IMG/VR virus record: IMGVR_UViG_3300035070_000721
Span: 1 to 26,406 of that record
Source: a virus
Direction: 5' to 3' (one strand)
Length of the DNA: 26,406 nt
The stretch's first letter is position 1. Every line of letters starts with the position of its first letter. Made by a program: the position numbers and the translations under genes. The notes beneath the pieces are model-generated. The model searched no databases and had not been told where the DNA came from. It saw only the letters and a list, made by a program, of their open reading frames with translations. This document shows positions 1 to 26,406 of this stretch, one piece after another.

Positions 1-12
1 AAGAGGAACCTG

Positions 13-1845
13 ATGCGAAGAACGATTTTTGATATAGAAACTGACGGTCTTCTCGATGAAGTTCAGAATCTTTGGTGCATCGTATGTCGTGATGCTGACA
101 CAGGAGAAGTGACTACTTATGGCCCTGATAAAGTTCATGAAGGTGTACAGCACTTAATAGACAGCGATGAGCTTATAGGTCACAACATAATAAATTATGA
201 CGTACCTGCTTTAGCAAAGTTAGGATATAGAATTGATTCTTTTCCGAAGCTGACAGACACACTTGTACTGTCACGTTTAATGCATACCAACTTAGGTGAT
301 TCAGATCGTATAAGAAATCTTAAAGGCGAAGTAATCCCTCCACGTTTAATAGGATCACATTCCTTGAAAGCGTGGGGGTATCGTCTGGAGTGTCACAAAG
401 GTAATTACATTGAGGAGCATGGCTATGACCATTATTCAGAAGGGATGCTGGTATACTGTGTACAAGACACTGAAGTTACCTACCGATTATATAGAGACCT
501 AATAGCAGAAGGATGGAGCCAGCAGTGTATCGATTTAGAACATAGATTCGCTACTATCATAAACGACATGTCTAATCACGGCTTCAGTTTTGATATATAC
601 AAAGCTAGGGATTTATATGTACGTCTCTCTTGCCGAAAGTTGGAACTTCAAGAGCAACTTAAGCTAATGTTTCCTGACGATAAACAGCAAATGAAATCCA
701 CATTATGGAGAACTTCAGATGGTGATTTATACGAAACAAAAAAGTCAGCTAAAGCAGCAGGTTTTAAAGATGTTGATATCGAAAAAGGCCCAGCAAAAAT
801 AAAGATGATTCCTTTTAATGCAGGTTCACGTGACCACATAGCAGATCGGTTGCAACGCCTTGGATGGAAACCTGTAGAGATGACTAATGAGGGTAAACCA
901 AAAGTAGATGAAACAATTCTATCTAAAGTTAGACTAGAAAAAGGACAAGAGTCAGTTGAGTTGCTTAATGAATATTTAACATTAGTTAAACGAATGGGTC
1001 AGCTTGCAGAAGGAAAACAAGCGTGGATGAAGTTAGAGCAGAAAGGGAGAATGCATGGAAAAGTAAATACTAACGGTGCAGTGACAGGGCGTTGTACACA
1101 TTCTAATCCTAATGTAGCTCAAGTTCCACGTTGTGGTTCTCCTTATGGGACTGATTGCAGGGAGCTTTTCAAAGCGTCAGAAGGGTATACTCTTATTGGT
1201 TGTGACGCTGCAGGGCTAGAATTACGTTGTCTTGCACACTTTTTAGCACCTTATGATGAAGGCGATTATACAAAAAAACTTCTCGAAAGTGATATACACG
1301 TGGAAAACCAGAAAGCTGCTGGCTTACCAACTAGAGACGCTGCTAAACGATTTATTTACGCTTTCCTCTATGGAGCTGGAGACGCAAAAATTGGAGAAGT
1401 CATTGGAAAAGGCAGAGCTGCAGGACGATCTATTAAAGAAACTTTCTTAAGCTCTTTACCTGCATTAGCAAAATTAAAAGCTTGTATAACAGGTGCATTA
1501 GCTGATAGGGACTTTCTCAAAGGTCTGGATGGTAGACACTTATATATACGTAGTGAACATTCAGCATTGAATACATTACTGCAATCTGCAGGTGCGGTAA
1601 TTATGAAGCAAGCGACAGTTGAGTTATACGACAGTTTAACAAAACTAGGACTTAAACACGGCTCAGATTGGGCCTTTGTAGCACATGTGCATGACGAGTT
1701 TCAAATGGAAGTCAGGCCTCAACATACTGAGGTTATACGAGCTGCTGCAGTCGAAGCAATCAAGCAAGCAGGTATCGCCCTTCAGTTTAGATGCCCTCTT
1801 GACGGCGAAGCTAGGGCTGGAAAAAACTGGGCCGAAACTCACTAG
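13..1845 (+). CDS. Family A DNA polymerase with 3'-5' exonuclease (T7 gp5-like)
   Basis: Replicative phage DNA polymerase, 610 aa (T7 gp5 is 704). The N-terminal proofreading exonuclease shows Exo I FDIETDG (D7, E9), Exo II around H57-N58-D63 and Exo III YCVQD (Y148, D152). The polymerase domain shows motif A DAAGLELR (D398), motif B K445-RFIYAFLYG, and motif C VHDE (H560, D561, E562), so all catalytic carboxylates are present. Similarity to T7 is strong in the fingers and palm, for example NGAVTGR and ALNTLLQSAGA. The segment at about residues 224-269, where T7 carries its thioredoxin-binding loop, is visibly shorter. The start is fixed by AAGAGG just upstream of the ATG, and the ATG overlaps a TGA (11-13) that probably ends an upstream gene outside the window. 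The following nuclease-like gene starts 11 nt after the stop. Confidence 0.97.
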   Translation: MRRTIFDIETDGLLDEVQNLWCIVCRDADTGEVTTYGPDKVHEGVQHLIDSDELIGHNIINYDVPALAKLGYRIDSFPKLTDTLVLSRLMHTNLGDSDRIRNLKGEVIPPRLIGSHSLKAWGYRLECHKGNYIEEHGYDHYSEGMLVYCVQDTEVTYRLYRDLIAEGWSQQCIDLEHRFATIINDMSNHGFSFDIYKARDLYVRLSCRKLELQEQLKLMFPDDKQQMKSTLWRTSDGDLYETKKSAKAAGFKDVDIEKGPAKIKMIPFNAGSRDHIADRLQRLGWKPVEMTNEGKPKVDETILSKVRLEKGQESVELLNEYLTLVKRMGQLAEGKQAWMKLEQKGRMHGKVNTNGAVTGRCTHSNPNVAQVPRCGSPYGTDCRELFKASEGYTLIGCDAAGLELRCLAHFLAPYDEGDYTKKLLESDIHVENQKAAGLPTRDAAKRFIYAFLYGAGDAKIGEVIGKGRAAGRSIKETFLSSLPALAKLKACITGALADRDFLKGLDGRHLYIRSEHSALNTLLQSAGAVIMKQATVELYDSLTKLGLKHGSDWAFVAHVHDEFQMEVRPQHTEVIRAAAVEAIKQAGIALQFRCPLDGEARAGKNWAETH

Positions 1846-1855
1846 ATACGAAGTC

Positions 1856-4035: not shown

Positions 4036-4228
4036 AGTGGTGAAACCCCCAGCCCCTGCGTTACCCCCAATACAACCTAATAAACAAGCGGAAGTAGATA
4101 AAGGGCCAAAATCTACTGTCACTAAAGCAGGTAAAAAACAAAGAAGAGGAACAGCAAGAAAACGTCTTGTTATAAGCAGTCCTGCTGGAGTCAATCCTTC
4201 ATCATCAGGTGTTGGTACTTATTCATAA
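4010..4228 (+). CDS. Pro/Lys-rich small virion-associated protein (T7 gp7.3-like)
   Basis: Protein of 72 aa, low complexity. It starts MCLGMKAPK, has a proline-rich stretch (KPPAPALPPIQP) at residues 12-23, a basic segment (AGKKQRRGTARKRL) at about 41-54, and a Gly/Ser-rich C-terminus. Location just before the portal and the C-terminal pattern (RRG..RK.L, then G-rich end) resemble T7 gp7.3, a small tail-assembly protein ejected with the ejectosome. The similarity is compositional, so the call is tentative. The start at 4010 keeps the MC-x-G N-terminus seen in similar phage proteins; ATG 4022 is an alternative. Its stop overlaps the portal ATG as TAATG. Confidence 0.6.
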   Translation: MCLGMKAPKVVKPPAPALPPIQPNKQAEVDKGPKSTVTKAGKKQRRGTARKRLVISSPAGVNPSSSGVGTYS

Positions 4229-5823: not shown

Positions 5824-6110
5824 TGGCTAGAGAACAATTAAAAGCTAAGACTAAGAAAAACAAAGTTCCTTTTAGAACTCCTAGTCATCCTAAAAAAAGT
5901 CATGCAGTTTACGTAGACGGAAAACTTATTAGGTTTGGACAACAAGGTGTTAAAACAAATCAAACTGCTGGACAACGTAAAGCTTTTAAAAGTAGACATG
6001 CTAAAAACATTTCTAGAGGGCCAACATCAGCAGCTTATTGGGCTGACAAGGTTAAATGGTCTCCTAGTAAAACTAAATCAGATTCACCTAAATGGAAAAA
6101 AGGAAGTTAA
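5823..6110 (+). CDS. Small basic phage protein (RFG...RKxFxxRH...YW family)
   Basis: Protein of 95 aa, strongly basic. The core reads GKLIRFGQQGV, then GQRKAFKSRHAKNI, then SAAYWADKVKWSP. This pattern resembles a small phage protein family (RFGD...RRKSFRARH...YWSC) often found near head genes, but the cysteines I associate with that family are absent here. Function unknown; possibly a minor head or DNA-binding protein, inferred from charge and position between portal and scaffold. Starts in a TAATG overlap with the portal gene and ends in a TAATG overlap with the cysteine-rich mini-ORF. Confidence 0.8.
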   Translation: MAREQLKAKTKKNKVPFRTPSHPKKSHAVYVDGKLIRFGQQGVKTNQTAGQRKAFKSRHAKNISRGPTSAAYWADKVKWSPSKTKSDSPKWKKGS

Positions 6111-6175
6111 TGTGTACTAACAAAGACTGTTTTGAGGACTGCTGTAAAGGCGGATGTAAAAAGAAATCTAAATAA
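6110..6175 (+). CDS. 21-residue cysteine-rich mini-ORF
   Basis: ATG 6110 opens a 21-codon frame ending at TAA 6173-6175. The peptide has five cysteines (positions 2, 7, 11, 12, 16; spacing C-x4-C-x3-CC-x3-C) and a lysine-rich tail (KKKSK). Support: AAGGAAG precedes the ATG at good spacing; the ATG overlaps the upstream stop as TAATG, the junction used repeatedly in this genome; and the stop is followed by G and then ATG, the same TAAGATG arrangement as the next junction at 6429-6435. Too short for similarity-based naming. It could bind a metal or form disulfides, which is speculation. An alternative TTG start of the next gene (6132) would use another frame across this stretch. Confidence 0.5.
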   Translation: MCTNKDCFEDCCKGGCKKKSK

Positions 6176-6176
6176 G

Positions 6177-6431
6177 ATGCCAGCAAATAAACCATATAAC
6201 GATCACAAAAGAGACCCCAAAACAATTTCTAAAAAAGAAATAGCTGGATGGTCTGAGAAACGAAAAAGAGAATACATGCAAGCTGCTAAATCAGAAGCTA
6301 GAGAGTTTCAACGTAAAGAAGCTTTAAAAGCTCCCCCAAGTAGGAAGCAAGCCATAAGAGAACACCTTAAAAATGAAGCAGGTAAAAAAGTTGCACCTGT
6401 AAGGAAAAAACACAACAAGTATTACAGATAA
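6177..6431 (+). CDS. Small basic hypothetical protein
   Basis: Protein of 84 aa from ATG 6177, rich in Lys/Arg with little hydrophobic content: a helical, highly charged segment (KKEIAGWSEKRKREYMQAAKSEAREF in outline) and a basic tail ending HNKYYR. No recognised domain. The frame is open upstream to a TTG at 6132, which would add 15 residues that partly resemble the following gene (a VK..VK..(L/I)...N(R/K)M pattern before an HKR). I prefer ATG 6177 because it follows the mini-ORF stop by one base. Its stop is likewise followed by G and the next ATG. Perhaps a DNA- or RNA-interacting or minor head protein, inferred only from charge and location. Confidence 0.7.
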   Translation: MPANKPYNDHKRDPKTISKKEIAGWSEKRKREYMQAAKSEAREFQRKEALKAPPSRKQAIREHLKNEAGKKVAPVRKKHNKYYR

Positions 6432-6432
6432 G

Positions 6433-6714
6433 ATGGCCACTAAAGAAAAACAAAGAGCTAGACGCAGGGCTTTACTTGTACAAAAACAAAAAGGATTACG
6501 TAAGGAAGGTAAAGTTTATGACAAATACCTCTCAGCATATGACGTAAAGGGTAATGTAAAAAAAGAAATAAAGGCAGCAGTAAATCGCATGTCCCCGTCA
6601 AACGTCATAGAAGGCCACAAAAGATATATTAAATCGATTGCAGATGCAGCTACCCTGCCATTCAAAAGTAAAGAGGAACGGAAAAGGATAATTCAAGGCA
6701 AGAAAAAGAAATAA
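6433..6714 (+). CDS. Small basic hypothetical protein
   Basis: Protein of 93 aa, very basic from the first residues (KEKQRARRRALL) to a poly-lysine end (GKKKK). The middle holds VKKEIKAAVNRM and then a GHKRYIKSI segment, which resembles the 5' part of the preceding gene's frame and hints at distant paralogy. No membrane segment, no recognised domain. Third of a run of small basic genes between portal and scaffold; T7 has nothing of this kind between genes 8 and 9. No clear Shine-Dalgarno; the start follows the previous stop by one base, so translation is probably coupled. Confidence 0.75.
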   Translation: MATKEKQRARRRALLVQKQKGLRKEGKVYDKYLSAYDVKGNVKKEIKAAVNRMSPSNVIEGHKRYIKSIADAATLPFKSKEERKRIIQGKKKK

Positions 6715-6717
6715 TTT

Positions 6718-7434
6718 ATGGAGAGAGTAACATTCACAGACCAAGAAGCTCCTGCAGATGACCCTCAACTTGAGAATCCTGCAGAAGAAGTTAACGAACA
6801 AGAAGAAATCCAACAAACTGACAGGCCAGAGTGGTTGCCAGATAAGTTTGGAGACCCAGAAGAACTCGCTAAAGCGTACAGCAGTCTTGAAAAGAAGTTT
6901 ACTTCAAGGCAAGCGGAAGAGAAAGGCCTCCTTACGGAAGATGATTTCCAGAATTATGCAAATGAATATAATGAAAACGGAGGGTTAACAGATGAAACTT
7001 ATGAAGCACTTGCTAAGAAAGGGTTGTCTCAAGATTTAGTAGATAACTATATCAGAGGTGTTAACCAAGTAAACGAAGCTGAAGTTCAAGACATGTATGG
7101 CATAGCAGGTGGTGAAGAGAACTACAATGCTATGACTAACTGGATGGCTGAATCACTCGATCAAAGTGAGCTAGATGCTTTTAATAGTGCAGTCGAGGGT
7201 GATGCAGGAGTAGCACGTATGGCTATAAAAGGAATGTACGCTCAGTTTGCAGCAGCAGGAGGAGAATCTAGAGAACCTTCTTTAGTGCAAGGAGGAAGAC
7301 CTTCTAGTGTGGGAGGCTACGGGTCTCTGTATGAAATGAAAGAAGACATGAAAGACCCTAGATACCAAGCAGGTGACAGAAACTTCCACGCAATGGTTGA
7401 GAAACGTTTAGCGATGTCAGGTAATTTATCATGA
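6718..7434 (+). CDS. Capsid assembly scaffolding protein (T7 gp9-like)
   Basis: Protein of 238 aa (T7 gp9 is 307). Scaffolds guide procapsid assembly and leave before or during packaging. Hallmarks: a very acidic N-terminus (EAPADDPQLENPAEEVNEQE in outline), then PEWLPDKFGDPEELAKAYSSLEKKF at about residues 37-61, a conserved segment of phage scaffolds, and a helical middle and C-terminus. Gene order (portal, scaffold, capsid) supports it, although two lysis-like genes intervene before the capsid. The ATG is preceded by an A-rich stretch without a clear Shine-Dalgarno. Its end overlaps the holin-like gene as ATGA. Confidence 0.92.
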   Translation: MERVTFTDQEAPADDPQLENPAEEVNEQEEIQQTDRPEWLPDKFGDPEELAKAYSSLEKKFTSRQAEEKGLLTEDDFQNYANEYNENGGLTDETYEALAKKGLSQDLVDNYIRGVNQVNEAEVQDMYGIAGGEENYNAMTNWMAESLDQSELDAFNSAVEGDAGVARMAIKGMYAQFAAAGGESREPSLVQGGRPSSVGGYGSLYEMKEDMKDPRYQAGDRNFHAMVEKRLAMSGNLS

Positions 7435-7706
7435 GTCAACAAATAGAAAAAAAAGCAGGGTATAAATCTACTGAGTTCTGGTTAAGTCTTGTTGCTATCC
7501 TAGTAGGAGCAGTAGCAAGTTCAGGACTAGTAGAAAGCAGTGAGTTTGCGACCAAAATTGTAGGCCTTATTACAGCTACATTAATAGCATTAGGTTATAC
7601 AGGGTCACGACTGACCTTAAAGAAGCATGTATTAGATGCAGAAGTTAAATTAAACAGTGGAAATACTGATAATAATACTGAAGGAGATACTGAAACTCCT
7701 AATTGA
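7431..7706 (+). CDS. Holin-like protein with two membrane helices
   Basis: Protein of 91 aa. A short polar N-terminus (KKAGYKSTE) is followed by two predicted membrane helices, about residues 16-34 (FWLSLVAILVGAVASSGLV) and 42-57 (KIVGLITATLIALGYT), then a basic turn (GSRLTLKKH) and an acidic, Asn-rich tail. Size, two helices and charged C-terminus fit a class II phage holin, which forms membrane lesions that let the endolysin reach the wall and time lysis. The GYKSTEFW start is typical of holins annotated in many podoviruses (recalled). It overlaps the scaffold stop as ATGA and the lipoprotein start as TGATG. No endolysin gene is in the window. Confidence 0.8.
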   Translation: MSQQIEKKAGYKSTEFWLSLVAILVGAVASSGLVESSEFATKIVGLITATLIALGYTGSRLTLKKHVLDAEVKLNSGNTDNNTEGDTETPN

Positions 7707-7978
7707 TGATGCCACTAAACCTGTTAAAGCATCAGTTGCTACTACTGTTCCTAGTAAGTTGCGTGACGCTTGGGAACAGCGGATGCTTGACAGGTGGAAA
7801 AAGAGTGGTATTCATACACCCGACTGACACACTGGTTAGGATAGGGCCGGATGTCAAAGGTCATGTGTATTATTACAAAGGGCCTGAAAAAGGTTGGGAG
7901 CTATCCACTAATAGAGTCCAGTTGCCAGAAGGTTGGTTAACTGGGCCAATGAATTTGCCCGAAGAGGGAGCCGAATAG
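7706..7978 (+). CDS. Small lipoprotein, possible outer-membrane spanin or lysis accessory
   Basis: Protein of 90 aa from ATG 7706 (ATG 7709 equally possible). The N-terminus is a lipoprotein signal: a short basic start, the hydrophobic run LLLLFLVSC and a lipobox LVSC with C19 as the likely lipidated residue; a second candidate is NSGC (C27). The mature part reads KRVVFIHPTDTLVRIGPDVKGHVYY, then WELSTNRVQLPEGW. I recall similar small proteins beside phage holins. Directly after the holin-like gene, a Gram-negative outer-membrane spanin or other lysis role is the best guess, but no separate inner-membrane spanin is visible. Start overlaps the holin stop (TGATG). Confidence 0.72.
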   Translation: MMPLNLLKHQLLLLFLVSCVTLGNSGCLTGGKRVVFIHPTDTLVRIGPDVKGHVYYYKGPEKGWELSTNRVQLPEGWLTGPMNLPEEGAE

Positions 7979-8086
7979 CCTGTTACGACAGACAACTTGG
8001 AAGCAACAACTGAGGGAAGTGTTAGATCATAGTGAGTGCTATGGTCGTTTAGTTGTTTAATAATATATAAAGAAAGATAAAATAAT
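7979..8086 (+). promoter_or_regulatory. Structured leader upstream of the major capsid gene
   Basis: Largest gap between genes in the window. It contains a perfect 8-bp hairpin (GATCATAG 8025-8032, loop TGAGTG, CTATGGTC 8039-8046, one G-U pair). A 7-bp outer helix encloses it (AACAACT 8005-8011 with AGTTGTT 8051-8057). An imperfect direct repeat starts ACAACT at 7992 and 8006; the second copy runs into GAGGGAAG, which ends like a T7-type promoter start site. An AU-rich stretch follows to the ATG, with no clear Shine-Dalgarno. By analogy with the T7 phi-10/gene 10 leader it may hold a late promoter and a 5' stabilising or RNase III-processed stem. The structure is seen; the function is inferred. 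Confidence 0.5.
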
Positions 8087-9316
8087 ATGGGCTATGAAAA
8101 TAACTTATTCGGAACTAACGGATCAGTTAATGTCGAAGGTCGCGTTGGTTCAAACAAATGGGCTAACGACTCAACAGGTCTCTTCCTGAAGAAATTTGCG
8201 GGAGAAGTAATGACGGTATTTGATGAAAAGAACATCATGAAACCGTTACATACCATTAGAACTATTTCTAAAGGTAAATCGGCACAGTTTCCTGTAATAG
8301 GAACTGCAGGAGCAGGATACTACACCCCCGGAACTGACATCTTAGGTGCTGACGGAACAGGTGTAGGAGCTAACGGTGGTCTTAACCAATTCAAACAGAC
8401 TGAAGTGTTAATACACATTGACAAAATGTTGATGTCTAACACTTTCATTTCGTCTATTGATGAACTGGTAAGTCACTTTGATGTACGCGCTCCTTACACA
8501 CACCAGCTTGGTGAAGCCTTGGCTAACGAGTTCGATAAGAATGTCCTCAAGGTTGCTGTCAAGACAGGTGCTAAGAACTCTTCTGTACAAGAAGCAGCAG
8601 ATGTTGCAGGTGTCTCTGATTCTCAGAAGCTACTACTACCCGCTGACGCTTTGATACCCAACCAAACCAAACTCGGTTCTGTTGTGTACAGTAACAGTGT
8701 TGAAGGCCAAGTAGACGCAACTATAAAAGCTAACACAGCTTCAGCCTCTACTGCCATTAACAAGCTAAGATACGCTCCTGATGCTACAGCAATCCGCAAT
8801 GCTCTATTTGAGTCTGCACGATTGTTAGATGAGAAAGACGTTCCACAGAGTGATCGGTACGCCATCATTACTCCTGCGATGTACTATGAGTTGATCAACA
8901 GTGACAACATCGTTACTGGTTCGGTGATCAACAAAGACATCGGAGGTTCTGGTTCTATTGCTTCAGGTACTATTACCCAGTTGGCTGGAATCAACATTCT
9001 GGTAAGCAACCATCTTCCATCTGGAGCGCAGGTTGCTGGCACACACCCAAACCGTTGGACAGGTGCAGCAGGTAATGATTACGACCTCGATTACACCCAC
9101 TGTGCTGGCATCGTGTTCCAGAAAGGTGGTTTTGGTACGTTAAAACTACAAGACTTGACAATGGAGTCAGAATATATGATCGCCCGTCAAGGTAACTTGT
9201 TTGTTGCCAAGTACAGCATGGGTCACGGGCCTCTTCGCCCTGAGTCTGTTGTTGTTTGGTCTGACGGTACTCGTCCAGAAACACTGGCTGACGCTGACGT
9301 CGATAACGACGATTAA
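8087..9316 (+). CDS. Major capsid protein (T7 gp10A-like, HK97 fold)
   Basis: Protein of 409 aa (T7 gp10A is 345). Forms the icosahedral shell. T7-like capsid features: the N-terminal arm (NKWANDSTGLFLKKFAGEVM), the segment LHTIRTISKGKSAQFPVIG at about residues 63-81, the ILGADGTGVGANGG loop region, LLDEKDVPQSDRYAIITPAMY at about 247-267, and C-terminal ARQGNLFVAKYSMGHGPLRPESVV. Ends with an acidic tail (ADADVDNDD). It has its own leader upstream and a strong terminator downstream, as expected for the most expressed late gene. Codons here include more C-ending codons than in neighbours, consistent with high expression. No gp10B-type slippery site was seen at the 3' end. Confidence 0.96.
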   Translation: MGYENNLFGTNGSVNVEGRVGSNKWANDSTGLFLKKFAGEVMTVFDEKNIMKPLHTIRTISKGKSAQFPVIGTAGAGYYTPGTDILGADGTGVGANGGLNQFKQTEVLIHIDKMLMSNTFISSIDELVSHFDVRAPYTHQLGEALANEFDKNVLKVAVKTGAKNSSVQEAADVAGVSDSQKLLLPADALIPNQTKLGSVVYSNSVEGQVDATIKANTASASTAINKLRYAPDATAIRNALFESARLLDEKDVPQSDRYAIITPAMYYELINSDNIVTGSVINKDIGGSGSIASGTITQLAGINILVSNHLPSGAQVAGTHPNRWTGAAGNDYDLDYTHCAGIVFQKGGFGTLKLQDLTMESEYMIARQGNLFVAKYSMGHGPLRPESVVVWSDGTRPETLADADVDNDD

Positions 9317-9330
9317 TAATAGTTAACACT

Positions 9331-9368
9331 GGGAACCCTCTGAAATATTGGGGGTTCCCTCTTTTTTT
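9331..9368 (+). terminator. Intrinsic terminator after the capsid gene
   Basis: Perfect 8-bp stem GGGAACCC (9331-9338) and GGGTTCCC (9352-9359) with a 13-nt loop, followed by TC and a run of seven T (9362-9368). It sits 15 bases past the capsid stop, the same place as the T7 T-phi terminator, and would lower transcription of downstream tail genes relative to capsid. Confidence 0.93.
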
Positions 9369-9376
9369 ATAACATC

Positions 9377-10195
9377 ATGGCTTACGGATCATTTACAGGA
9401 AAATTAGAAGCAATCAATCAGATGTTGTCCACTATAGGACAATCACGTTTAGCAGCCCTGCCTACAGCAGGAGAAGGATTAGATGCACAGAAGATTTTAG
9501 AAGAAGTAGACAGAGCAGTTCAATCTGAAGGCTGGCACTTCAATATGTTTCATGACGTTCCTTTAGATGTAGGCCAAGCAACTCTTGCAGGATTAAGTAT
9601 TGCGAATGCAACACAAGTTACTACTACTGCTGCACACTACTTAGTCAAAGGTGAGAACATTGCAATCAACGATGCAGCAACAACAGTAGCCAGTGTAACC
9701 AGTGCAAACATATTTGTTACATCAACTAATGTTTCAGGAAGTCCTCTTAAATATTCTAAACGAATAGAGACTCCTGCTACTGCATTGAACGTAGATTTTT
9801 CAACTTATCGTTACAGCGACTTAGACCCAGTAGTTCGTGGTCGTTTTATCTATGACAAGAACAATGCTACTTATGAATTTCAAGAAGACTTAAAGGCAAT
9901 CATTACGTATCAAGTTGCCTTTGAGCAAGCTAGTGCTGGAGGTGAGGCGTTGCCAGAATATGCCAGAAGATTTATCACTATGAGAGCTGCACGTGTTTTT
10001 GCACAGCGTCATGTAGGCGATCCAGAATTAGTCAGAATGGCTGCTCTAGAAGAACAAACAGCTAACGCACAGTTTATTCAAGCTGAGTCTGAAAACTCAG
10101 AGTCTAATATATTTAGTGCAGCTCTACCTTATTACACAATATCTAGAGGAAGAGATGTACAAACACCTTCGATCTCTAATCTGTATAAAGTATAA
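9377..10195 (+). CDS. Tail tubular protein A / gatekeeper (T7 gp11-like)
   Basis: Protein of 272 aa (T7 gp11 is 196). It forms the ring joining portal to the tail nozzle. The N-terminus is characteristic: LEAINQMLSTIGQSRLAAL, then DAQKILEEVDRAVQSEGWHFN at about residues 34-54. The C-terminal half has LPEYARRFITMRAARVFAQRHVGDPEL at about 193-219 and a helical end (ALEEQTANAQFIQAE). The extra length lies mainly in a Thr/Ala-rich beta stretch in the middle (residues about 68-135). The ATG follows the terminator by only 8 bases and has no Shine-Dalgarno. The stop overlaps tail tube B as TAATG. Confidence 0.93.
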   Translation: MAYGSFTGKLEAINQMLSTIGQSRLAALPTAGEGLDAQKILEEVDRAVQSEGWHFNMFHDVPLDVGQATLAGLSIANATQVTTTAAHYLVKGENIAINDAATTVASVTSANIFVTSTNVSGSPLKYSKRIETPATALNVDFSTYRYSDLDPVVRGRFIYDKNNATYEFQEDLKAIITYQVAFEQASAGGEALPEYARRFITMRAARVFAQRHVGDPELVRMAALEEQTANAQFIQAESENSESNIFSAALPYYTISRGRDVQTPSISNLYKV

Positions 10196-13100
10196 TGCCC
10201 TTAGTTAAGAACGCTGCAACTAGTCTCGCACAAGGTGTCAGTCAACAGGCTGAATCTCAAAGGTATCCTTCTCAGGCTACTGAACAGATCAATGCATACT
10301 CATCACCAATTAAGGGACTTGTTAAGCGTCCTCCTTCTAAGTTTCTTACTAAGGTAGATTTAGACACTACAAACAGGAATAACACATTTATACATACAAT
10401 TAACAGGGATTCTGATGAACAGTATGTGTTAGCGATAGATAAACAGAATGAATATCCTGTAACAGCAGTTTCACATAGTAACGATACAATCACAACAGGG
10501 ACTGCTTTAGCAGCTAACACCCCAGTACGTTTTTTACCTAACGATTCTCAAACTACAGGTGAAGGTGCTAATGGTACGTTGCCAACTGGATTAGAAAAAG
10601 GGACAACTTACTTTACCAAGACCAATAATGTAACTACTCAAGTCTCAGCTACAGCAGGAGGTGCTGCAATTCCAATAGGAAAAGTAAGCATAACAGATAT
10701 TAAACTTGAATCAGTTAAACACACAGACGGCAGATGGGTAGACGGTGTGTTTGCAGTTACTTTTGCTGCAGGACATGGGTTTGAAGTAGGAGATATAATT
10801 CAAATTGATGGTCTTACAGGTGATGCTGCTTTAATTCTAAATGCAACTGAACAATACCTTTTACGTAAGCCTACACAAGTAATGGACGAATATGACACTA
10901 ATGGTACTGCCATTGCTCGGTCAGCTAATCAGTTTTTACTTGGAAAACCAAACGGTGATACAGGAAGTTTTGAAGATAATTTAGGATACGCTGTAGATGA
11001 ACGTTGGGTGGAAGACAATGATGACGACGGTTGGAACATGTATGGAGCAAGTGTTCATTGGGTGTTTTATAAAGATGGAGGAAACAGTGGCACGTTGTCT
11101 AATAGAATATCAAATGTCTCTCCTCCATCTGGAGATAATCTGTGTAATGAATTAATTTACAACACATCAGATAACGATGAGTTTGGTGGGGGAGGTGCTT
11201 TAAACGGTTGGGCTGCTGCTTTAACTGATTTTCAAGCAGGAGATTTACTTAGGTTAGGATCAAGACGAAACACAGATAAATCTATAAGAGCAGTTGTTGC
11301 TTCTGTTGATGGGCCTTTCACTGACCACGCTGGAGGAACTGCGTCTTACAGAATTAAACTACGTAATTACATAAAATTAAAAGACTTAGTAGATTCAGAC
11401 AGCAGCACTAACTATGGATCAACAGCACCACCTTGGAATTACATAGCTTATTGGGGAGACACAACATCGACAACACCTGCAGCGTCAAACCCTCGCCAAA
11501 TATTAAGCACAGATATTACTAATGCCCACATAGGGTTAAACGAAAGTATAGGTAGTTTTTCTATGTATACAGGAGGCATACGTGTTTACGATGTAAACTC
11601 CAAACAAGAACAGACTTTAAATATAGACAGTGGTTTATCTTATTTAACTAATACTGCTAACCCTGCTTCTGAATTATCTGCAGTTACTGTTGCAGATTAC
11701 ACTTTTCTAGTTAACAAAACACAAAAAGTAGCTGCAGGTAAAAAACCAAAGTATGCAAAAAACAATGAAGCTTTTATTAATGTACGTACTGCTGACTATG
11801 GCAAACGTTACACTGTAAAAGTAGGAGGAGAAGTCCACAAACAGTACGCAACTACTGACGCTCATTCTTACGCAATGATTCAAGGCGTAGATAGCGATGG
11901 AAAAGAAAGGCCTATAGCTAAATTAAGCTCTAGAGCAGTGGACAGCAAATTTAACGGGTACTTAGTAAGGGTGATTCAAAACTGGAGGTGGGACAATAAA
12001 GAAGGACACCCTTTAAAAAGCAAAGGAAAAATGAGTAACGGTGTCTGGAATTCAACTAAAAAACATAAAGACAATTTACCTCCTGAAAAACACCGAATTA
12101 ATGAGTACGTTGGTATTGAGTACAATAAAGAGAAAAATGAAATAAACATTTGGGTTAATTTTAATTGGGCTGAACGAACAAGCGTTACTTCAAAAAGAAC
12201 TACATTAGACCATGTGCTTAAAGCAGTAGATGCTTCGCCATTAGGAGATGATTTTAAATTAGAAGAAACAGATTCGACAGGGAATGTATTAGCTGACAGT
12301 AACAATGATGGAGTCCCTGATAATTCAGTTTCTACGGCATTGTTTTTCCATCAAGTACATGTAGGCCCTTTAACATCTAAACTACAACTTAACGTTACTC
12401 CTCATAAAGGGTTTCTTCAACTTGAAGATTTATATTATGGGCCTGAAACATCCTTTGGAACTGTTAACCTTAAAACAGAGTGGGTGCTTTCAGCAGGTTA
12501 TGTAAGTCCTTCTGCAGGAAAAAATATTATACGAGGACGTTACACTGGAAGCGGTGTACATGCGGCTGCTGGCGGTATGGACTTTGGGCATGCTAATTCA
12601 ACAGGTAAATATAAAATAGAAAACGGTGAGTTCTTTTATAAGTCTGCAAAATGGACAGGCCAAGCAACTCAAAAAGCGGTAGGAACAGAAAGAATTGCTG
12701 CAGTGCTGGCATGCAACGGAAAGCGAACTCCAGAAGGAGAAAATTTCACAGACAGTTCAGCAGGAGACGGAGTAGCTGATACAGGTGATCACGGTTTTAA
12801 AAAAGCTAATGGATTACCATTGGAAGGACAGTTTGACGATAATGCTAAAGAAGAATGTTTAGGGCTTACATGGAAACCTAGCAATAGTGGGACATACTTA
12901 AGTAAATACAATGGATCAGGAGGAATCGATGGGTCAACTGCTAATTGGCACGTACAACAGGATGGTTATGTCATTGCGTTAAAACATCCTGATGGTAAAG
13001 AATTTAAAATCAGCGTGTCTGACGATTTAGGTGGGCGAGGTCTTAAATTAACATATTTTGAAGTTGATGAAATCACTGACTTGCCTGACCGTTGCCGCCA

Positions 13101-14721
13101 CAATCACGTAGTAAAAGTCATAGGCAACGTTAGAGAAGAAGCTGATGATTATTATTTAAGATTTAAAGCAGACACTGAAGATGTAAACAGCATACAACAC
13201 GGGCGTTGGGTAGAGTCATTAGGATATGAAACAGTTCCTGACTTAGATAAAACCACAATGCCTATAGGACTTATACGAGAAGCAGACAATACATTTACTT
13301 TAAAAGAATTAGATTGGAATGAAAGACAAGCAGGAGACGACCAAAGTAACCCTTTCCCCTCATTTGTTGGTACTACTATTAACGATATTTTTTTGTTTAG
13401 GAATCGTTTGGGGTTCCTTTCTGGTGAGAATATAATTTTTAGTGAAGCAGGGGAGTATTTTAATTTCTTCAGGACTACAGTAGCAGCTTTGCTAGATACA
13501 GCTCCTATTGATGTGACTGCAAGTACTAACAAAGTAAGCAAGTTGCATAGTGCCATACCTTATAATGAACGTTTAATTATCTTTAGTGACCAAACACAGT
13601 TCGTATTAGATGCTGATCCATTCTTGTCACCTAAAACAGTAACACTTTCCCCTGCTAACGAAATTGATAACATAGTAGATGTTAAACCTGTAGTTAGTGG
13701 TAACTCTATTTACTATGCGTTTTCACGTACAGGATACAGTGGAATAGGAGAACTAGGTGTTTCACAAGAAGACGCTGATCAAATGGAAGTAGCTAATGCA
13801 ACTTCTCATGTTCCTAAATACATCAAAGGAAATATTCGCAAGATAGCAGCTACATCAAATGAAGATGTAATATGTTGTATTACTGATGATGAAACATCAG
13901 CTACTCTATACGTTTATAAATATTTTAATAACGAACAGAATCAAAAAGTACAATCAGCGTGGTTTAAATATAACTTTGGAACCCCTAACTCTGACACTAA
14001 TCTTTCCGATTATATTACTGATATATCTTTTATAGATACTACATTGTATATACTTATAAGACGCAATGGTGTTATGTATATTGAAACAGTGACGTTTGAA
14101 GATGATGTCAAAGATGCTAAAGCTTCAGGCACAATGGATTATCAAGTTTGCCTAGATCACCGCATTGATAAACCTTCTTCAGGTGTAACTTCAAGCTCAG
14201 TCACATTACCTAGTAACTACAAAGTGACTAGCACTATGAAGCTAGTAGATGAAGATGGGAATCAATTCAGCAGCAGTACTCATGGAAACACAAACGTATT
14301 TACATGCACTGTCCCTACCAGTAAGAATTTCTTTATAGGTGAACCCTACACAATGGAATACACCTTTAGTCAACCCTTCCTTAAGTCAGCTAAAGCTACA
14401 GAGACGGGACGCTACCAGATACAACGTGCTTATTTAGAATATGCTAACGCAAGGTATTTTACAGTAGATGTCCTTCACAACCCTAACTTAATTACATCAG
14501 CTCAAACTAATGTTACAAACACTTTTTCTTTATCTATAATTGAGCAAGGGTTAATAGATGGAACCTCTGAATTACAAAATGGTTTTTATGCTTTTGCTAT
14601 TCAGGAGAAAAACGATAGGCTTCAGTTGACGCTTAAAAATGATTCTCCTTATCCATCTGATTTTTTAAGTATCGATTATGAAGCTAGAGCATTTTCAAGA
14701 GGAAGTAGATGGAGAGGTTAG
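10195..14721 (+). CDS. Tail tubular protein B / nozzle, double length (T7 gp12-like)
   Basis: Protein of 1508 aa; T7 gp12 is 794. It forms the tail nozzle. The N-terminus (VKNAATSLAQGVSQQAESQRY, then KGLVKRPPSKFL) and C-terminal half (FPSFVGTTINDIFLFRNRLGF at about 1055-1075, DVTASTNKVSKLHSAIPYNERLIIFSDQTQF, SGNSIYYAFSRTGYSGIGEL) match the family. A middle core piece (SAVTVADYTFLVNKTQKV) lies near residue 495. Two long extra regions, about 80-480 and 575-955, are rich in Gly, Asn, Asp, Ser and Thr, which suggests added beta-domains on the nozzle surface. The first contains a LPTGLEKGTTYF motif common in phage structural proteins. No frameshift. Overlaps the gp13-like gene by 44 nt. Confidence 0.92.
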   Translation: MPLVKNAATSLAQGVSQQAESQRYPSQATEQINAYSSPIKGLVKRPPSKFLTKVDLDTTNRNNTFIHTINRDSDEQYVLAIDKQNEYPVTAVSHSNDTITTGTALAANTPVRFLPNDSQTTGEGANGTLPTGLEKGTTYFTKTNNVTTQVSATAGGAAIPIGKVSITDIKLESVKHTDGRWVDGVFAVTFAAGHGFEVGDIIQIDGLTGDAALILNATEQYLLRKPTQVMDEYDTNGTAIARSANQFLLGKPNGDTGSFEDNLGYAVDERWVEDNDDDGWNMYGASVHWVFYKDGGNSGTLSNRISNVSPPSGDNLCNELIYNTSDNDEFGGGGALNGWAAALTDFQAGDLLRLGSRRNTDKSIRAVVASVDGPFTDHAGGTASYRIKLRNYIKLKDLVDSDSSTNYGSTAPPWNYIAYWGDTTSTTPAASNPRQILSTDITNAHIGLNESIGSFSMYTGGIRVYDVNSKQEQTLNIDSGLSYLTNTANPASELSAVTVADYTFLVNKTQKVAAGKKPKYAKNNEAFINVRTADYGKRYTVKVGGEVHKQYATTDAHSYAMIQGVDSDGKERPIAKLSSRAVDSKFNGYLVRVIQNWRWDNKEGHPLKSKGKMSNGVWNSTKKHKDNLPPEKHRINEYVGIEYNKEKNEINIWVNFNWAERTSVTSKRTTLDHVLKAVDASPLGDDFKLEETDSTGNVLADSNNDGVPDNSVSTALFFHQVHVGPLTSKLQLNVTPHKGFLQLEDLYYGPETSFGTVNLKTEWVLSAGYVSPSAGKNIIRGRYTGSGVHAAAGGMDFGHANSTGKYKIENGEFFYKSAKWTGQATQKAVGTERIAAVLACNGKRTPEGENFTDSSAGDGVADTGDHGFKKANGLPLEGQFDDNAKEECLGLTWKPSNSGTYLSKYNGSGGIDGSTANWHVQQDGYVIALKHPDGKEFKISVSDDLGGRGLKLTYFEVDEITDLPDRCRHNHVVKVIGNVREEADDYYLRFKADTEDVNSIQHGRWVESLGYETVPDLDKTTMPIGLIREADNTFTLKELDWNERQAGDDQSNPFPSFVGTTINDIFLFRNRLGFLSGENIIFSEAGEYFNFFRTTVAALLDTAPIDVTASTNKVSKLHSAIPYNERLIIFSDQTQFVLDADPFLSPKTVTLSPANEIDNIVDVKPVVSGNSIYYAFSRTGYSGIGELGVSQEDADQMEVANATSHVPKYIKGNIRKIAATSNEDVICCITDDETSATLYVYKYFNNEQNQKVQSAWFKYNFGTPNSDTNLSDYITDISFIDTTLYILIRRNGVMYIETVTFEDDVKDAKASGTMDYQVCLDHRIDKPSSGVTSSSVTLPSNYKVTSTMKLVDEDGNQFSSSTHGNTNVFTCTVPTSKNFFIGEPYTMEYTFSQPFLKSAKATETGRYQIQRAYLEYANARYFTVDVLHNPNLITSAQTNVTNTFSLSIIEQGLIDGTSELQNGFYAFAIQEKNDRLQLTLKNDSPYPSDFLSIDYEARAFSRGSRWRG

Positions 14722-15193
14722 ATGGAACTTAGGAAAACTATATGTTGAACGAGCAACAGAACGAGATGCCAGTAGGATGGCAGGGAGATTGCGAAGCTGT
14801 GATCGGAACGAAATCGCTGCAGTCACCGTCAGACCTGCTGTACGAGTGCTTATCGATGGAGTCAAACAGTCATCTCCTTGCTTCACCGTCAAGACAACAG
14901 ATGGACGACCTTGCGGAATCTTCGGTACACGTGACTCTGGCGATCCCCAAAGCGGTGTGGTTTGGATGCTCGGAACTGACGATCTCACTGCCAACGGACG
15001 AACTTTCCTCAGATACTCAAGACGATGGGTAAATGAATTACATAAGAAATACAAAATGTTGTACAATGTTATCGATGCTCGTAATAAAGTTCACCTTAAT
15101 TGGCTCGAATGGATGGGCTTTGAGTTTGTTGAGGAAATAGAAAAGTACGGAATAGAAGAAAGAAAATTTATACTGTTTAGTCGTTATGTTTGA
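14678..15193 (+). CDS. Internal virion protein A, acetyltransferase-like (T7 gp13-like)
   Basis: Protein of 171 aa (T7 gp13 is 138). It has the GNAT-like layout of the gp13 family: LYVERATERDASRMAGRLRSCDRNEI near the N-terminus, a central sheet (PCFTVKTTDGRPCGIFGTRD and VVWMLGTDDL), then a helix WVNELHKKYKMLYNVIDARN and HLNWLEWMGFEF. In T7 gp13 is needed for proper assembly of the internal core proteins. Whether this copy is enzymatic is unknown. The only in-frame ATG that keeps the domain whole is 14678, inside the tail tube B gene. The stretch 14740-15010 is richer in CG and CCG-type codons than its neighbours, which may reflect the overlap or an older exchange. Confidence 0.85.
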   Translation: MKLEHFQEEVDGEVRWNLGKLYVERATERDASRMAGRLRSCDRNEIAAVTVRPAVRVLIDGVKQSSPCFTVKTTDGRPCGIFGTRDSGDPQSGVVWMLGTDDLTANGRTFLRYSRRWVNELHKKYKMLYNVIDARNKVHLNWLEWMGFEFVEEIEKYGIEERKFILFSRYV

Positions 15194-15803
15194 TTTAATA
15201 CCTATACTCGCTTGCGAACCTGTATCTTTAGGAATTGCTGCTGCATCTGCTGTAGCAGGTCATCTTGGAAAAAAACAACAAGCTGCTGCACAAGAAGATT
15301 ATCAAAAAAGTGTTTCAGGAAGTATGGTAGAGCAATCTGCTGCCACTATATCTGCTATTAATCAGAACATAACTGAAGCTGAAGAAATAGCTTCACGTAA
15401 AGATCAACAAATTCAAACAGCAGCTATGCGAGCTATCTCATCTTCATCACTTTCAGCATTAGAAAGCGGAGTCTCAGGTCAATCCATAGACGCTCAGATG
15501 GATGAGTTTAAAGCTCACGCTGCTTCCGTTAGACATGCAAACGCAAGAGATACTGAAAGTTCTGTTTACAAGTATCGTCAAAGCATGGTTAACACTAACC
15601 TAGCTACTAAAGCTCAACTAGTATCTAATGCCAGACCTATTGACCAAGCACAACCTTTAGCTGCTGTTCTTGATTTTGCCTCTAAAGGAATGGATATACA
15701 TAGAGCATACGCTGGAACAAAACCTCCAAAAGTAGGAGCTAAGTCACAACTTAAAGGTGCTGCTACTGACCCTAATGATTTTAAATTCTACCAACACACT
15801 TAA
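15186..15803 (+). CDS. Internal virion protein B (T7 gp14-like)
   Basis: Protein of 205 aa, close to T7 gp14 (196). In T7, gp14 leaves the particle first and forms an outer-membrane pore for DNA ejection. N-terminal hydrophobic Ala-rich helix (VSLGIAAASAVAGHLGKKQQ), then long Ala/Gln/Ser-rich helices with heptad-like spacing (NQNITEAEEIASRKDQQIQTAAMRAISSSS), and RHANARDTESSVYKYRQSM in the middle. The C-terminus is extended and polar. It starts 8 nt inside the gp13-like gene and precedes the gp15-like gene by 2 nt. Confidence 0.88.
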   Translation: MFDLIPILACEPVSLGIAAASAVAGHLGKKQQAAAQEDYQKSVSGSMVEQSAATISAINQNITEAEEIASRKDQQIQTAAMRAISSSSLSALESGVSGQSIDAQMDEFKAHAASVRHANARDTESSVYKYRQSMVNTNLATKAQLVSNARPIDQAQPLAAVLDFASKGMDIHRAYAGTKPPKVGAKSQLKGAATDPNDFKFYQHT

Positions 15804-15805
15804 TA

Positions 15806-18800
15806 ATGGCCGCTAAAAAAAGATATTCTCCCAATCCTTCACAAGTCTTAGGCACACCTTCGCTTGGATCTAACCAACAGATAGCGACTCCTAGTGTTGT
15901 AGGTGCTGCACCTCCTGCACGTTCTAATCCCTTATTAGATTTAGTAAAACCTTTAGAAAACTTTAACAGGTCTCTTGTTGGGTATCAGTTAGGTAAACTT
16001 GAAAAAGCTTCAGTAGAAGCAGGGCAACACTATGCAGGAATGGAGCAAACTATTTCTGATAAATCGTATGGTTTTAAAAAATATCTTAGACAAGCAGGAT
16101 TTAGTCAATGGGCTAACCCTTGGGTTTACAGTAAACAAATAACTAATTTAGCAGGTAACACTGCAAGTAAAGATGCAGTATCAGTAACTCAAAATCAGGA
16201 CTTCTTACTTCAATTAAATAGTTTAACCAGAAATTCAGATAACTTTGAAAATGATGCTAACGCTTTGATTGACCGTTTTAAACCTGAAAGAACTGCTGAG
16301 TTTGAACAAGAAGGAGCTTACTGGGATATGGGCTATGCTCCTAAATGGATTGCTGAAAAGAATAGAATCGTAGCAAATGCCTCTGCAAAAAACACTGAGT
16401 ACCAGCAGTTAAAAGTCAGGTCAACATTTTTTGAATCAGGCCGACAAGCTCTTTTAGATTCTGTAACACTAAGCCAACAAAGTGTTGAAGAAGGTGGAGG
16501 AATCGCAAACGCTAAGAAAGCATTTCGTAATTTTATTAATAATAATTTTTCTTCATTCCCTGATGATGAAATCAAATTTAATTCAGCAGTTTTTGAAAAT
16601 GTTATAAAACCTATTTTTCAAGAGTTAGCTGACAGAGGAGATGACTTAGAAAATGTAGCTGATTTATACGATCAATTATCAAGGCTCACTAGAGATGATG
16701 AAAAAACAGGGCAACGCATATCGATGTTTAAAAGCAAAACTTCTGATATTGACCCTAGTGACCAAAGGTATGAATCTTTCAATTCTTTTTGGAGGACATT
16801 AGAAGACAGCTATGATTCAGCACAGGGTGAAAAAACTAAACAGATTGCAGCAGTAAGAAACAATCTAATGCTTAAAGTCCAAAGTGATCTTAATAGTTTG
16901 CAAAGTTTTAAAGAAGAACACCCTGAGTTAATCAGTCGTTACGGTCTTGATGGTGTGACTTTTCCTTATGATGTTAGCAACAAAGATTTAACAAGACGGT
17001 TAGCTAGTGCTTTTTTTGAAGCTTATGACAAAGACGGATCTTCTTCTAAATTAGCTGGCACACATTCTGAAGATCATCGTGTATTTTATAACGTGTTTAG
17101 CACAATGACTACAGCGGCTAATGGTGCGTTAGTTACAGGTGCTGAGAACTCTGAAAAAGCTCAAGCTGCTTGGAGCAGTCAGATGTCTCAACAAATAGGA
17201 ACATGGTTACAGGATCAAGGTATTGCAGAAGATTTAGTAGAATATGTTAATAAAAGCATAGGAGGGCGAACAACTGCTTCTATGTATCCTGCAGAGTTTT
17301 TAAAAAGGGAAGGAGTAGATAAACTTCAAAAAAGATTTTATGATTCTCATCCTCACATTAAAAGAGGTTCTATTGCTTTTGCTTCTGCTATAGATCAGTA
17401 CATGCAACCAAAAATAGCTAATGCTGGCATCAATAGGGCTAAACAATTAATTGCTATTATTAATTCAAAAGTTAAAAACGATAGCGCAACAAAAGATGAC
17501 GCTGACAGCCTTAGAGACGCTGCCTTAGAAATAAACGACACAGACACAGAAAATAAACTTAAATTTTTAATGGGTGAAGTAGAAACACAAGTTGATAATT
17601 CAGCTCAATTTAAAACAGTTAAAACTACAGAAAACATAGACACTTTATTAAACAGGACTATAGCTGATTTAATGGTTAAAGATCCTGATATTAGAGAAAT
17701 ACAAGAATACAACGAACACAATTGGAAAACAGAAACTTCATTATCTTGGCAAGTTACCGAAGAAGATAAACAACTAGCAGCAGCAGCTCAAAACGCAATG
17801 CAATGGTATCGCAACGAAGCCCTTCAAATAGTGATTGAAACTTCAAAAGAGGTTTTAACAAACAAACCTGCAGATCAAGATAAAGAAACATGGTGGGCAG
17901 CAACAGGGCAGTCGTTAGCTAATGACACTGCAGTTGAAAGACTTAAACTTCTTAAAGACAGCTTTAAACAAAAATATAATGACGAAACAATACAGGTACA
18001 ATCAGCAGATCAATTTAGGTCACAAACTGAAGGAGGTGCTTTAAACCCACAAGATGCTGAACTTCTTAACAATCAAGAGTTTTATGCTGAAGAACTGAGC
18101 CAGTTTAATTCAAATCAAGCAGGTTTAAACACTACTGAAGCAGTTATAAACAATGCCCAATCTGATGCACCTCTTTTAGAGAAATTCTTTACAGGCCAAA
18201 AAGGACAAAACTTTTGGAACCGTATAGGTGATTCAAACAGAGCTGCAAAAGCCAGTGTACTTAAACATCAATCAAATTATCATCAAGCTGTTGAAAACTT
18301 AAAAGAAGCTGAAAACAACAAGTCAGCAGTTCAAATACAACAAGCTAGGACTAATTTAGAAGTACGTGCAGAGGAATTAAAAACCGCACGTTTAGCGTTT
18401 ACTCTTGTCCCTTGGGAAACTATTTCTGAAAATAATTACAAATTACCTGTAGATGCTTTTGGAACTCAAGGGGAACTTCAAATAAACAGCAACGATCTTA
18501 ATTTTAATAAAGTTTTGTTTTTTGGGTCTGTTGAAGAGATGGATGAAATTTCTGACATGTTGCAACTTTGGGAGGATGATCCTGATTTTCTTCAAGCACA
18601 GAACGAAACAGTTACTGATCCTAAAACAAAAGAAGTAACTGTACAACGTGGTGCTACTTTTGACCCTAAACTTGCTCCAGAAAAACTCCAAAAAGTTGCA
18701 CAATTTATACAGAAATCTACAGGTATAAACATACTAGAACCAAATGAAACAAAACGTGCTGAAGCACATAAAGCTTTTGACAAATTCTGGGATAAACAGG

Positions 18801-25897: not shown

Positions 25898-26406
25898 ATG
25901 TCAAACACCATAAAGATTAAGAATGCTGCAAGCGGCACACCTAGTTCTTTAGTTGCAGGTGAACTTGCAGTTAATACCGCTAATGGAAATCTATGGGTTG
26001 GTAACACTGCGGGTAATGGTGTCATACATTTAAATCCTGCTTTTAACGGAACACTTAGTGGCACATTAACCACAACTGCCGTTGACATAGGGGGAGGTTA
26101 TACAAACGCAGGTTCTGGTGCGAGTATTACTAGTACTGGAAATATTAATGCTAATGGAAACTTGTCGGTTGATGGTAGTGCTGATTTTGGAGGAGGCTAC
26201 GGCAATGCTGTTGGTGTAAGTATTTCTAACACAGGAAACATATTAACTAATGGATTTCTTCAGGTTGATGGGAATTCATCGGTTACTGGTAACTTAACAG
26301 TCTTAGGCAATAGCACACTTAGTGGTGATTTAACTATTTCTACATCAAGCGACCCAGCACTCTCATTCGTTTCAGCCGAAAACGGTACAGATGCTTGGAA
26401 GGTTTA
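25898..26406 (+). CDS. Second fibre-like protein, 3' end outside window
   Basis: Frame open from ATG 25898 (directly after the previous TAA) to the end of the window: 169 codons, no stop. The N-terminus MSNTIKIKNAASGTPSSLVAGELAVN and NGNLWVG parallels the previous gene's N-terminal module, so the two are paralogous in that domain. It then has two imperfect copies of a roughly 33-residue unit beginning D-(I/F)-GGGY-x-N-A and ending VDG, followed by SVTGNLTVLGNSTLSGDLTIS, a fibre shaft pattern. Probably a longer fibre with a receptor-binding C-terminus beyond the window. Incomplete, so function is by inference. Confidence 0.8.
   Translation, partial: MSNTIKIKNAASGTPSSLVAGELAVNTANGNLWVGNTAGNGVIHLNPAFNGTLSGTLTTTAVDIGGGYTNAGSGASITSTGNINANGNLSVDGSADFGGGYGNAVGVSISNTGNILTNGFLQVDGNSSVTGNLTVLGNSTLSGDLTISTSSDPALSFVSAENGTDAWKV
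26084..26278 (+). repeat. Tandem 32-33 codon repeat in the partial fibre gene
   Basis: Unit 1 at 26084-26182 (33 codons) and unit 2 at 26183-26278 (32 codons) share D-x-GGGY-x-NA, then S-I-(T/S)-x-TGNI, NG-x-L-x-VDG. The DNA is less similar than the protein. A structural repeat of a fibre shaft; more copies may follow outside the window. Confidence 0.7.

Follow-up and report, generated by a model that had tools for sequence, protein, structure and literature searches.

The subject of this study is the tail nozzle gene of a virus record of 26,406 bases (IMGVR_UViG_3300035070_000721, the whole of which is termed the window below), a gene that encodes a protein of the T7 gp12 type at close to twice the length. 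What becomes evident from comparison with related viruses is that the additional length consists of modules added to a T7-like core, and that these modules are homologous across one clade of nozzles. Moreover, sequence alignments and trees together show that an intragenic cassette of ca 3 kb has been recombined between related phages, the platform half of the gene having stayed put. We infer that this cassette faces the cell and touches its surface; the exchangeable modules probably contact the host surface, where they would be expected to bind a receptor. Enlarged nozzles with inserted domains are already known. What is new is a T7-like clade with two inserts and an exchangeable cassette within the nozzle gene, for which a search of open-licence PMC papers found no earlier report.

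Modules added to a T7-like core

The nozzle open reading frame (ORF) begins with an ATG at 10195, ends with a stop at 14721 and encodes 1508 amino acids (aa), against 794 in T7 gp12. It matches PF25675 (Phage_nozzle) at E 2.9e-204 (681 bits, curated cut-off 27) and phrog_457 at E 1.6e-197, and aligns with T7 gp12 (6r21_a, E 2.2e-90) in three collinear blocks, such that residues 2–78, 456–576 and 918–1427 correspond to T7 residues 2–78, 79–202 and 211–721, respectively. The claim of a sequence-only reading, made before this analysis, that the gene encodes a T7 gp12-type nozzle of about double length is thereby confirmed. That reading also proposed prediction of the structure and its superposition on T7, and the outcome is an intact T7-like core on which the insertions stand as separate additions: an AlphaFold2 model of aa 44–1240 (27 sequences, mean pLDDT 74.6, pTM 0.48) superposes on 6r21_a over 419 residues at 2.5 Å (Z 27.4), aa 1241–1508 lying outside the model.

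Residues were counted as extra where the window position is present in fewer than 30% of 78 nozzles shorter than 900 aa, which gives 82–457, 545–695, 698–764, 774–810, 846–871 and 875–914. In other words, the additions (aa 82–457, aa 545–810 with two short breaks, and aa 846–914) total some 710 residues and therefore account for the size difference from T7's 794. T7 gp12 itself (PF25675; structures 6r21 and 7ey9), which the window protein resembles in its position after the adaptor as well as in the aligned blocks and the core, lacks both the insert of ~376 aa at its residues 78/79 and ~335 aa in its tip region. Insertions at 80–480 and 575–955 had been proposed from the letters of the window; these are roughly right but shifted, and the second is broken by a stretch common to short nozzles. 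Their description as Gly/Asn/Ser-rich holds weakly, since the enrichment is mild (26.4% and 26.5% in the two regions versus 20.1% elsewhere) and mostly due to Gly. The nozzle contains no tandem repeats, and a tandem-repeat origin of the inserts was dropped; internal duplication linking parts of the two inserts is likewise unsupported (hhalign probabilities 0.1–6.9%).

From the boundary at T7 78/79, insert 1 is placed in what would be an early hairpin of the propeller, while insert 2 falls between T7 equivalents ~170 and 211, inside the tip domain. In T7 this domain exits the propeller via a blade-3 loop, which Y146, Y281 and W297 stabilise, and forms the distal end (PMC6702177). In the reading that fits best, the nozzle of the clade keeps the T7 body of platform, fibre dock, seven-bladed propeller and tip. 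Beta-rich modules were added to the N-terminal half in two positions, namely the early propeller hairpin and the interior of the tip domain, which in T7 lies furthest out along the tail.

Modelled separately (aa 74–468, 29 sequences), insert 1 is mostly beta, with pLDDT 79.5 and pTM 0.74. In structural comparison by VIA-align, where Z 8 is the caution level and lower values may mean merely a common arrangement, the top 15 rows are all ubiquitin-E1 chains (UBA1 and UBA6; Z 6.2–6.8, 74–78 residues), aligned over a stretch which we take to be the FCCH barrel. After these come phage tail-tube and head-tail proteins (Z 5.3–5.4), and model residues 203–352 match accessory barrels of GH110B and others at Z about 5. 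The extent of the first barrel is deduced from the aligned range, 10..387, model residue 1 being aa 74. The likeness to the E1 FCCH barrel (PF16190) is one of small-barrel fold and implies no common function; when PF16190 was scanned directly, weak matches came up in 3 of 20 records (L001, L006 and L037), all inside the nozzle ORF and none over the cut-off, and 4 of 14 control genomes gave matches too. Foldseek returned no PDB row for insert 1 at E <=0.001. In BFVD there are 12 rows at E 0.001 or better, including a cyanophage tail-fiber-like protein and a baseplate wedge subunit, with large rmsd; lower-ranked but compact matches include one to the S-TIM5 tail fiber (96 columns, 2.5 Å, 26% identity, E 0.0083). 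From these fold matches, insert 1 probably consists of small beta-barrels of the kind common in phage tails; on the question of whether the additions form separate domains, it is predicted to fold as beta-rich domains of its own that resemble modules of viral tail proteins. Within the large model, insert 2 reaches a pLDDT of about 90 at aa ~623–693, and Foldseek with the whole model yields, beyond nozzles, propellers (DDB1 and others), which are uninformative on the inserts.

Relatives were gathered from viral contigs by searches with the window protein, its alignment to the relative L001, the portal protein and the middle segment, with two deposited phages added. The resulting 104 complete nozzle ORFs were collected as relatives, such that the share of long nozzles among them is not a prevalence. 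Twenty of them (the window counted) are 1494–1675 aa long; the other 84 span 648–1228 aa, and 67 of these 750–849 aa. All long nozzles are on metagenomic viral contigs and constitute one clade: in the tree built after removal of near-copies (88 of the 104 rows), 18 long nozzles are set apart from all other rows by a branch with SH-aLRT 100. The row closest to them, L100 (873 aa), has at site 1, the position of insert 1, an addition of ~80 aa that aligns with the beginning of the insert-1 profile (iE 1e-3 for a database size of 1000). Five tree rows of 900–1300 aa are scattered, two in the wider group containing the long clade and three elsewhere, and smaller additions therefore probably arose more than once, a conclusion made less than firm by the quick tree with its long branches. 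The sequence-only reading had named as its own refutation that the inserted parts be ordinary elaborations present across the family; in this regard the inserts are indeed common to the whole clade, yet most gathered nozzles lack them.

The nozzle has matches in 2,532 of 50,697 deposited phage records, none of which extends over 80% of its length. The insert-2 family, as far as scanned, is confined to these nozzles, with 22 loci confirmed, of which 20 are on known long-nozzle contigs and two are new and also match nozzle profiles. The new loci, L237 (2314–7194, a frame of 1627 residues) and L239 (2103–5021, 973 residues, truncated), are further long-type nozzles that came up only via the insert-2 profile and stand outside the counts given here. 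No relative came up when bacterial and archaeal genomes were scanned, and there is, in consequence, no hint of the host from this side.

Different insertions at the same site 1 are seen in two nozzles outside the long clade, L113 (5219–8902) and L196 (7098–10100), the former of more than 200 aa without a family match and the latter glycine-rich; it may be that site 1 accepts insertions in nozzles generally. Judged by eye, the L113 insert (in a nozzle of 1228 aa) had seemed a laminin-G-like lectin, which neither Pfam nor a direct PF13385 scan supports; its best PDB match, to jacalin-type lectins at E 0.26, is at chance level, and it has no relative among the deposited phages. The L196 insert (nozzle of 1001 aa) gives only sub-threshold matches to Gly_rich_2 (E 0.0017 and 0.0047) and nothing in the PDB.

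The intragenic cassette

Measured per 100 bases, DNA identity between the window and L001, its closest relative, is 96–100% at 9301–10300, falls to 34–65% across 10401–12900 and 57–70% from there to 13300, and returns to mostly 83–100% over 13301–16204. Overall, identity is about 90–99% on either side of aa ~50–1040 and ~50% within. The proteins behave in the same manner, with 100% identity over aa 1–40, 9–54% over aa 79–915 and 92–100% after aa 1050, except for a patch at ~1250–1300. Synonymous divergence (dS) is saturated in the cassette, at 1.6–2.2, versus 0.03 and 0.25 outside it. Since saturation occurs only here, the segment must have been replaced, local mutation being unable to explain the difference. 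A further relative, L063, tracks the window at 79–99% per 250 bases over 1–10443, after which the alignment is lost; the L063 contig ends inside the nozzle. Taking L063 (window 1–10443) and L001 (7948–16204) together, every bin of 250 bases is at 76% or higher once the cassette and the bin at its right edge (13001, 68%) are set aside. Patches of 61–69% identity to L001 amid higher flanks are found at 8601–8700 and 9001–9100, in the capsid gene, and at 14001–14100, equivalent to nozzle aa ~1270–1300; these are possibly exposed loops that also vary quickly.

Phylogeny gives the same picture. In the tree of flanks and core, the window joins L001 with support 100/100. In the cassette tree it joins L005 at 100/99, with L001 grouped with L070, L037, L007 and L040, and the union of window and L001 is rejected there (log-likelihood 281 lower, p-AU 7.7e-78). 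L005 and L037 are themselves sisters in the core tree and separated in the cassette tree, such that one and the same two classes of cassette occur in each of two backbone pairs. The reverse pattern is displayed by L007 and L040, which have like nozzles and unlike neighbours: their adaptors are 58% identical, and their DNA is 80–100% identical across L040 1601–5800, 47–77% upstream and ~40% far downstream. Their dS is 0.02–0.21 in the cassette versus 0.80 and 0.37 in the flanks, and the ratio of nonsynonymous to synonymous divergence (dN/dS), which is 0.17 in the core, reaches 0.48 in insert 1 and 0.62 in insert 2.

As a control, 111 nozzle pairs with flank/core identity of at least 0.75 were compared (104 short and 7 long, the pairs not being independent). 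Among the short pairs the largest fall in identity over the cassette region is 0.21, for L107/L108, which themselves carry an addition at site 2. Two of the long pairs fall by 0.55 (window/L001) and 0.39 (L005/L037), and the other five by 0.11 or less.

Possible roles of the exchanged modules

The reading we favour, as somewhat more likely than not, is that the cassette provides a second, shorter-range step of recognition or triggering, which comes into play once the long fibres have acted. When the tail meets the cell, a receptor or surface polymer would be captured by the inserted domains, and the bound inserts would displace the tip and the propeller gates, such that core proteins and DNA are released; a change of host, or the need to keep up with a changing receptor, would then favour exchange of the cassette, as for tail fibres elsewhere. 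A wider reading, at somewhat less than an even chance, makes the nozzle of this uncultured marine clade a modular receptor-binding protein: its two cell-facing inserts of fibre-type barrels would make up a cassette with several allelic classes, traded across backbones, and its tip would set host choice or the ejection trigger alongside the fibres. The suggestion of receptor binding had been made in the sequence-only reading, and it gains from the separate domains on an intact core and from the exchange of the inserted half, as would be expected of a specificity determinant; binding itself stays presumptive.

There are precedents for nozzles in this role. The nozzle and adaptor of Vibrio phage OWB are reported to bind the host membrane protein Vp0980, which is needed for adsorption, the fibre binding lipopolysaccharide (PMC7241545). 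This is also a podophage in which nozzle and adaptor serve as receptor-binding proteins, likened to the window by description only, and the excerpted text of the report makes no mention of enlarged nozzles or inserts. Similarly, a single nozzle substitution expanded the host range of an Acinetobacter phage (PMC10904470), and substitutions in T7 gp12 accumulated under host-range selection (PMC6962156). Domain shuffling is described in tail fibres, spikes and baseplate proteins in a paper whose excerpted text contains neither the word nozzle nor tubular (PMC10684548). A structural parallel is the muzzle gp44 of phi-crAss001, with a T7-like seven-bladed propeller enlarged at blades 2–3, variation in length and likely contact with the cell surface (PMC10172136). 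As far as compared, its inserts differ from those described here, being two Ig-like domains and a 'crass fold': the window insert profiles have no sequence match to gp44 in the PDB, the match of 7qok_A to the whole window model is at propeller level only (Z 12.1, 216 residues), and insert 1 alone gave no Ig-like or crass-fold row of the crAss001 type among the Foldseek PDB and VIA-align matches listed.

Several observations weigh against a receptor-binding cassette. One or two separate large fibre genes could do all of the host recognition. Barrels of the FCCH-like kind are generic, so that their presence does not prove adhesion, and the best Z of 6.8 is below the caution level. Either insert alone finds no deposited phage record at E 0.01 among those searched. 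Moreover, the recombinant pairs seen are few and all of them metagenomic assemblies, and the cassette region varies more than the core in short nozzles too, such that the signal is in part one that nozzles show generally. By sequence (Pfam, PHROGs, NCBIfam and PDB profiles), neither insert shows a carbohydrate-binding, lectin, CBM, depolymerase or enzyme family, the Pfam matches being sub-threshold and in one member each (for example N1221, E 0.01, and EHN, E 0.0065). In addition, the two capsid patches between window and L001 drop to 61–62%, swapping and divergence of patches is described for concurrent marine phages also in genes that have nothing to do with host recognition (PMC3861242), and the matching block of L007 and L040 spans most of the nozzle gene and not the inserts alone.

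The main rival account, unlikely in our judgement and compatible with the favoured one, is that the inserts are a mechanical device which has no receptor of its own and, by extending or rearranging during infection, makes the channel through the envelope longer. The model here is the kuravirus SU10, whose tail proteins reorganise into a nozzle for genome delivery and whose nozzle gp17 has Ig-like domains between propeller blades 2 and 3 (PMC9509320). It is alike in that its propeller region, at the tip of the tail, has taken up extra domains, and different in that they form a row of Ig-like domains and match the window at propeller level only (7z47_G, Z 15.4, 213 residues). Enlargement of adaptor and nozzle together in all 20 long-nozzle records is what structural remodelling would give. 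A purely mechanical part should, however, need neither repeated exchange nor faster change than the core, whereas in L007/L040 the inserts do change faster (dN/dS 0.48–0.62 versus 0.17).

The last two observations in the list above, on marine phage genomes and on the L007/L040 block, speak equally for neutral mosaicism, in which the cassette is one of many swapped segments of marine phages, with breakpoints at the conserved ends of the nozzle and no functional meaning. We regard this as rather improbable, because the collapse of ~3 kb is limited to the cassette within the stretches compared with L063 and L001, and short-nozzle pairs lack a comparable drop. Very improbable, finally, is that the inserts are true polysaccharide-binding domains, a possibility raised in the sequence-only reading, or depolymerase domains, giving an enzymatic route through a capsule: insert 2 is at the tip by homology and part of insert 1 resembles the GH110 galactosidase barrel (83–90 residues, below the caution level), but neither insert has a convincing Pfam, PHROG, NCBIfam or PDB sequence match, and searches of each insert, by sequence for both and by fold for insert 1 alone (insert 2 being folded only within the large model), gave nothing confident.

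The host range of T7-like phages is usually credited to the tail fibres. If the nozzle tip does carry an exchangeable specificity cassette, predictions of the host that use only the fibre genes would fail for these marine phages; the comparison of natural cassette alleles that share a backbone would, in turn, offer a direct handle on what triggers the nozzle gates after fibre binding.

Adaptor, fibre and neighbouring genes

The window has a T7-like gene order of DNA polymerase, head-tail connector, capsid, adaptor, nozzle, internal virion proteins, fibre anchor and fibre genes, within which the succession from portal through capsid, adaptor and nozzle to internal virion proteins is of the T7 type. 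The features discussed are collected in the table.

Table. Features of the nozzle gene and its neighbours, in window positions
Feature	Positions	Strand	Basis
Tail nozzle protein, T7 gp12 type, 1508 aa	10195..14721	+	profile matches, T7 alignment, core superposition
Exchange cassette, about aa 50–1040, ~50% DNA identity to L001	10345..13300	+	identity profile, cassette tree, AU test
Insert 1, aa 82–457, between T7 gp12 equivalents 78 and 79; predicted beta-barrel modules	10438..11565	+	alignment boundaries, model
First beta-barrel of insert 1, aa ~83–188, apparently closed by a strand near aa 455–463, FCCH-like; extent approximate	10441..10758	+	VIA-align UBA1/UBA6 rows
Later beta-rich part of insert 1, aa ~277–425; weak resemblance to GH110B, BesA and MacA accessory barrels, Z about 5	11023..11469	+	VIA-align
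Insert 2a, aa 545–810, by position within the T7 nozzle tip-domain equivalent	11827..12624	+	alignment; tip location from PMC6702177
Insert 2b, aa 846–914	12730..12936	+	alignment versus short nozzles
Conserved C-terminal part, aa 1050–1508; remaining propeller, fibre dock and platform by T7 homology	13342..14721	+	alignment; domain names from PMC6702177
Adaptor, T7 gp11 type, 272 aa; ~60-residue beta-rich insert at about 9575–9757	9377..10195	+	PF17212 E 7.5e-28; phrog_446; alignment
Stand-alone fibre anchor, T7 gp17 N-terminal domain only, 191 aa	24381..24956	+	PF03906 E 3.7e-8
Separate fibre-type protein 1, 313 aa	24956..25897	+	phrog_6002 E 3.8e-8
Separate fibre-type protein 2, cut by the window end	25898..26404	+	weak Mtd_N match below cut-off, E 0.056

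The adaptor is 268–310 aa long in all 20 long-nozzle records, and 191–224 aa in the 78 of 84 other records where it is directly upstream of the nozzle; one record lists a shorter version as well, and an upstream start lies behind some of the greatest lengths. Its insert of ~60 residues is common to the 18 long-clade adaptors aligned and lacking in all four from shorter nozzles. The adaptors of the window and L001, insert included, are 99% identical despite the different cassettes, from which it follows that the adaptor does not co-vary with the cassette. A domain common to insert 1 and the adaptor insert is unsupported (HMM matches to the adaptor ORFs of L040, L070 and L085 at E 0.7–4.7).

The gp17-type fibre anchor was found in 13 of the 17 long-nozzle records searched, always as an open frame of 188–233 aa; in other records the frames are of 641 aa (G017, nozzle 873 aa) and 569 aa (G020, nozzle 1001 aa), and G018 has no match. 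Where the contig continues past the anchor, one or two separate fibre-type genes follow, such that the long fibres are not missing and the nozzle inserts come on top of them. Given that the adaptor is enlarged and the fibre anchor separate, remodelling seems to have involved the entire tail hub and not the nozzle alone. The window anchor (24381–24956, compared with L207) is 95% identical to that of the genome of L008, where the nozzle cores are only 58% identical; the fibre module thus seems, on these identities, to have been exchanged independently of the nozzle.

Between nozzle and anchor lie two very large ORFs of the internal-virion type, 15806–19810 (1334 aa) and 19810–24381 (1523 aa). 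The first is without a confident family in PHROGs (best E 0.075) or Pfam (best E 0.015).

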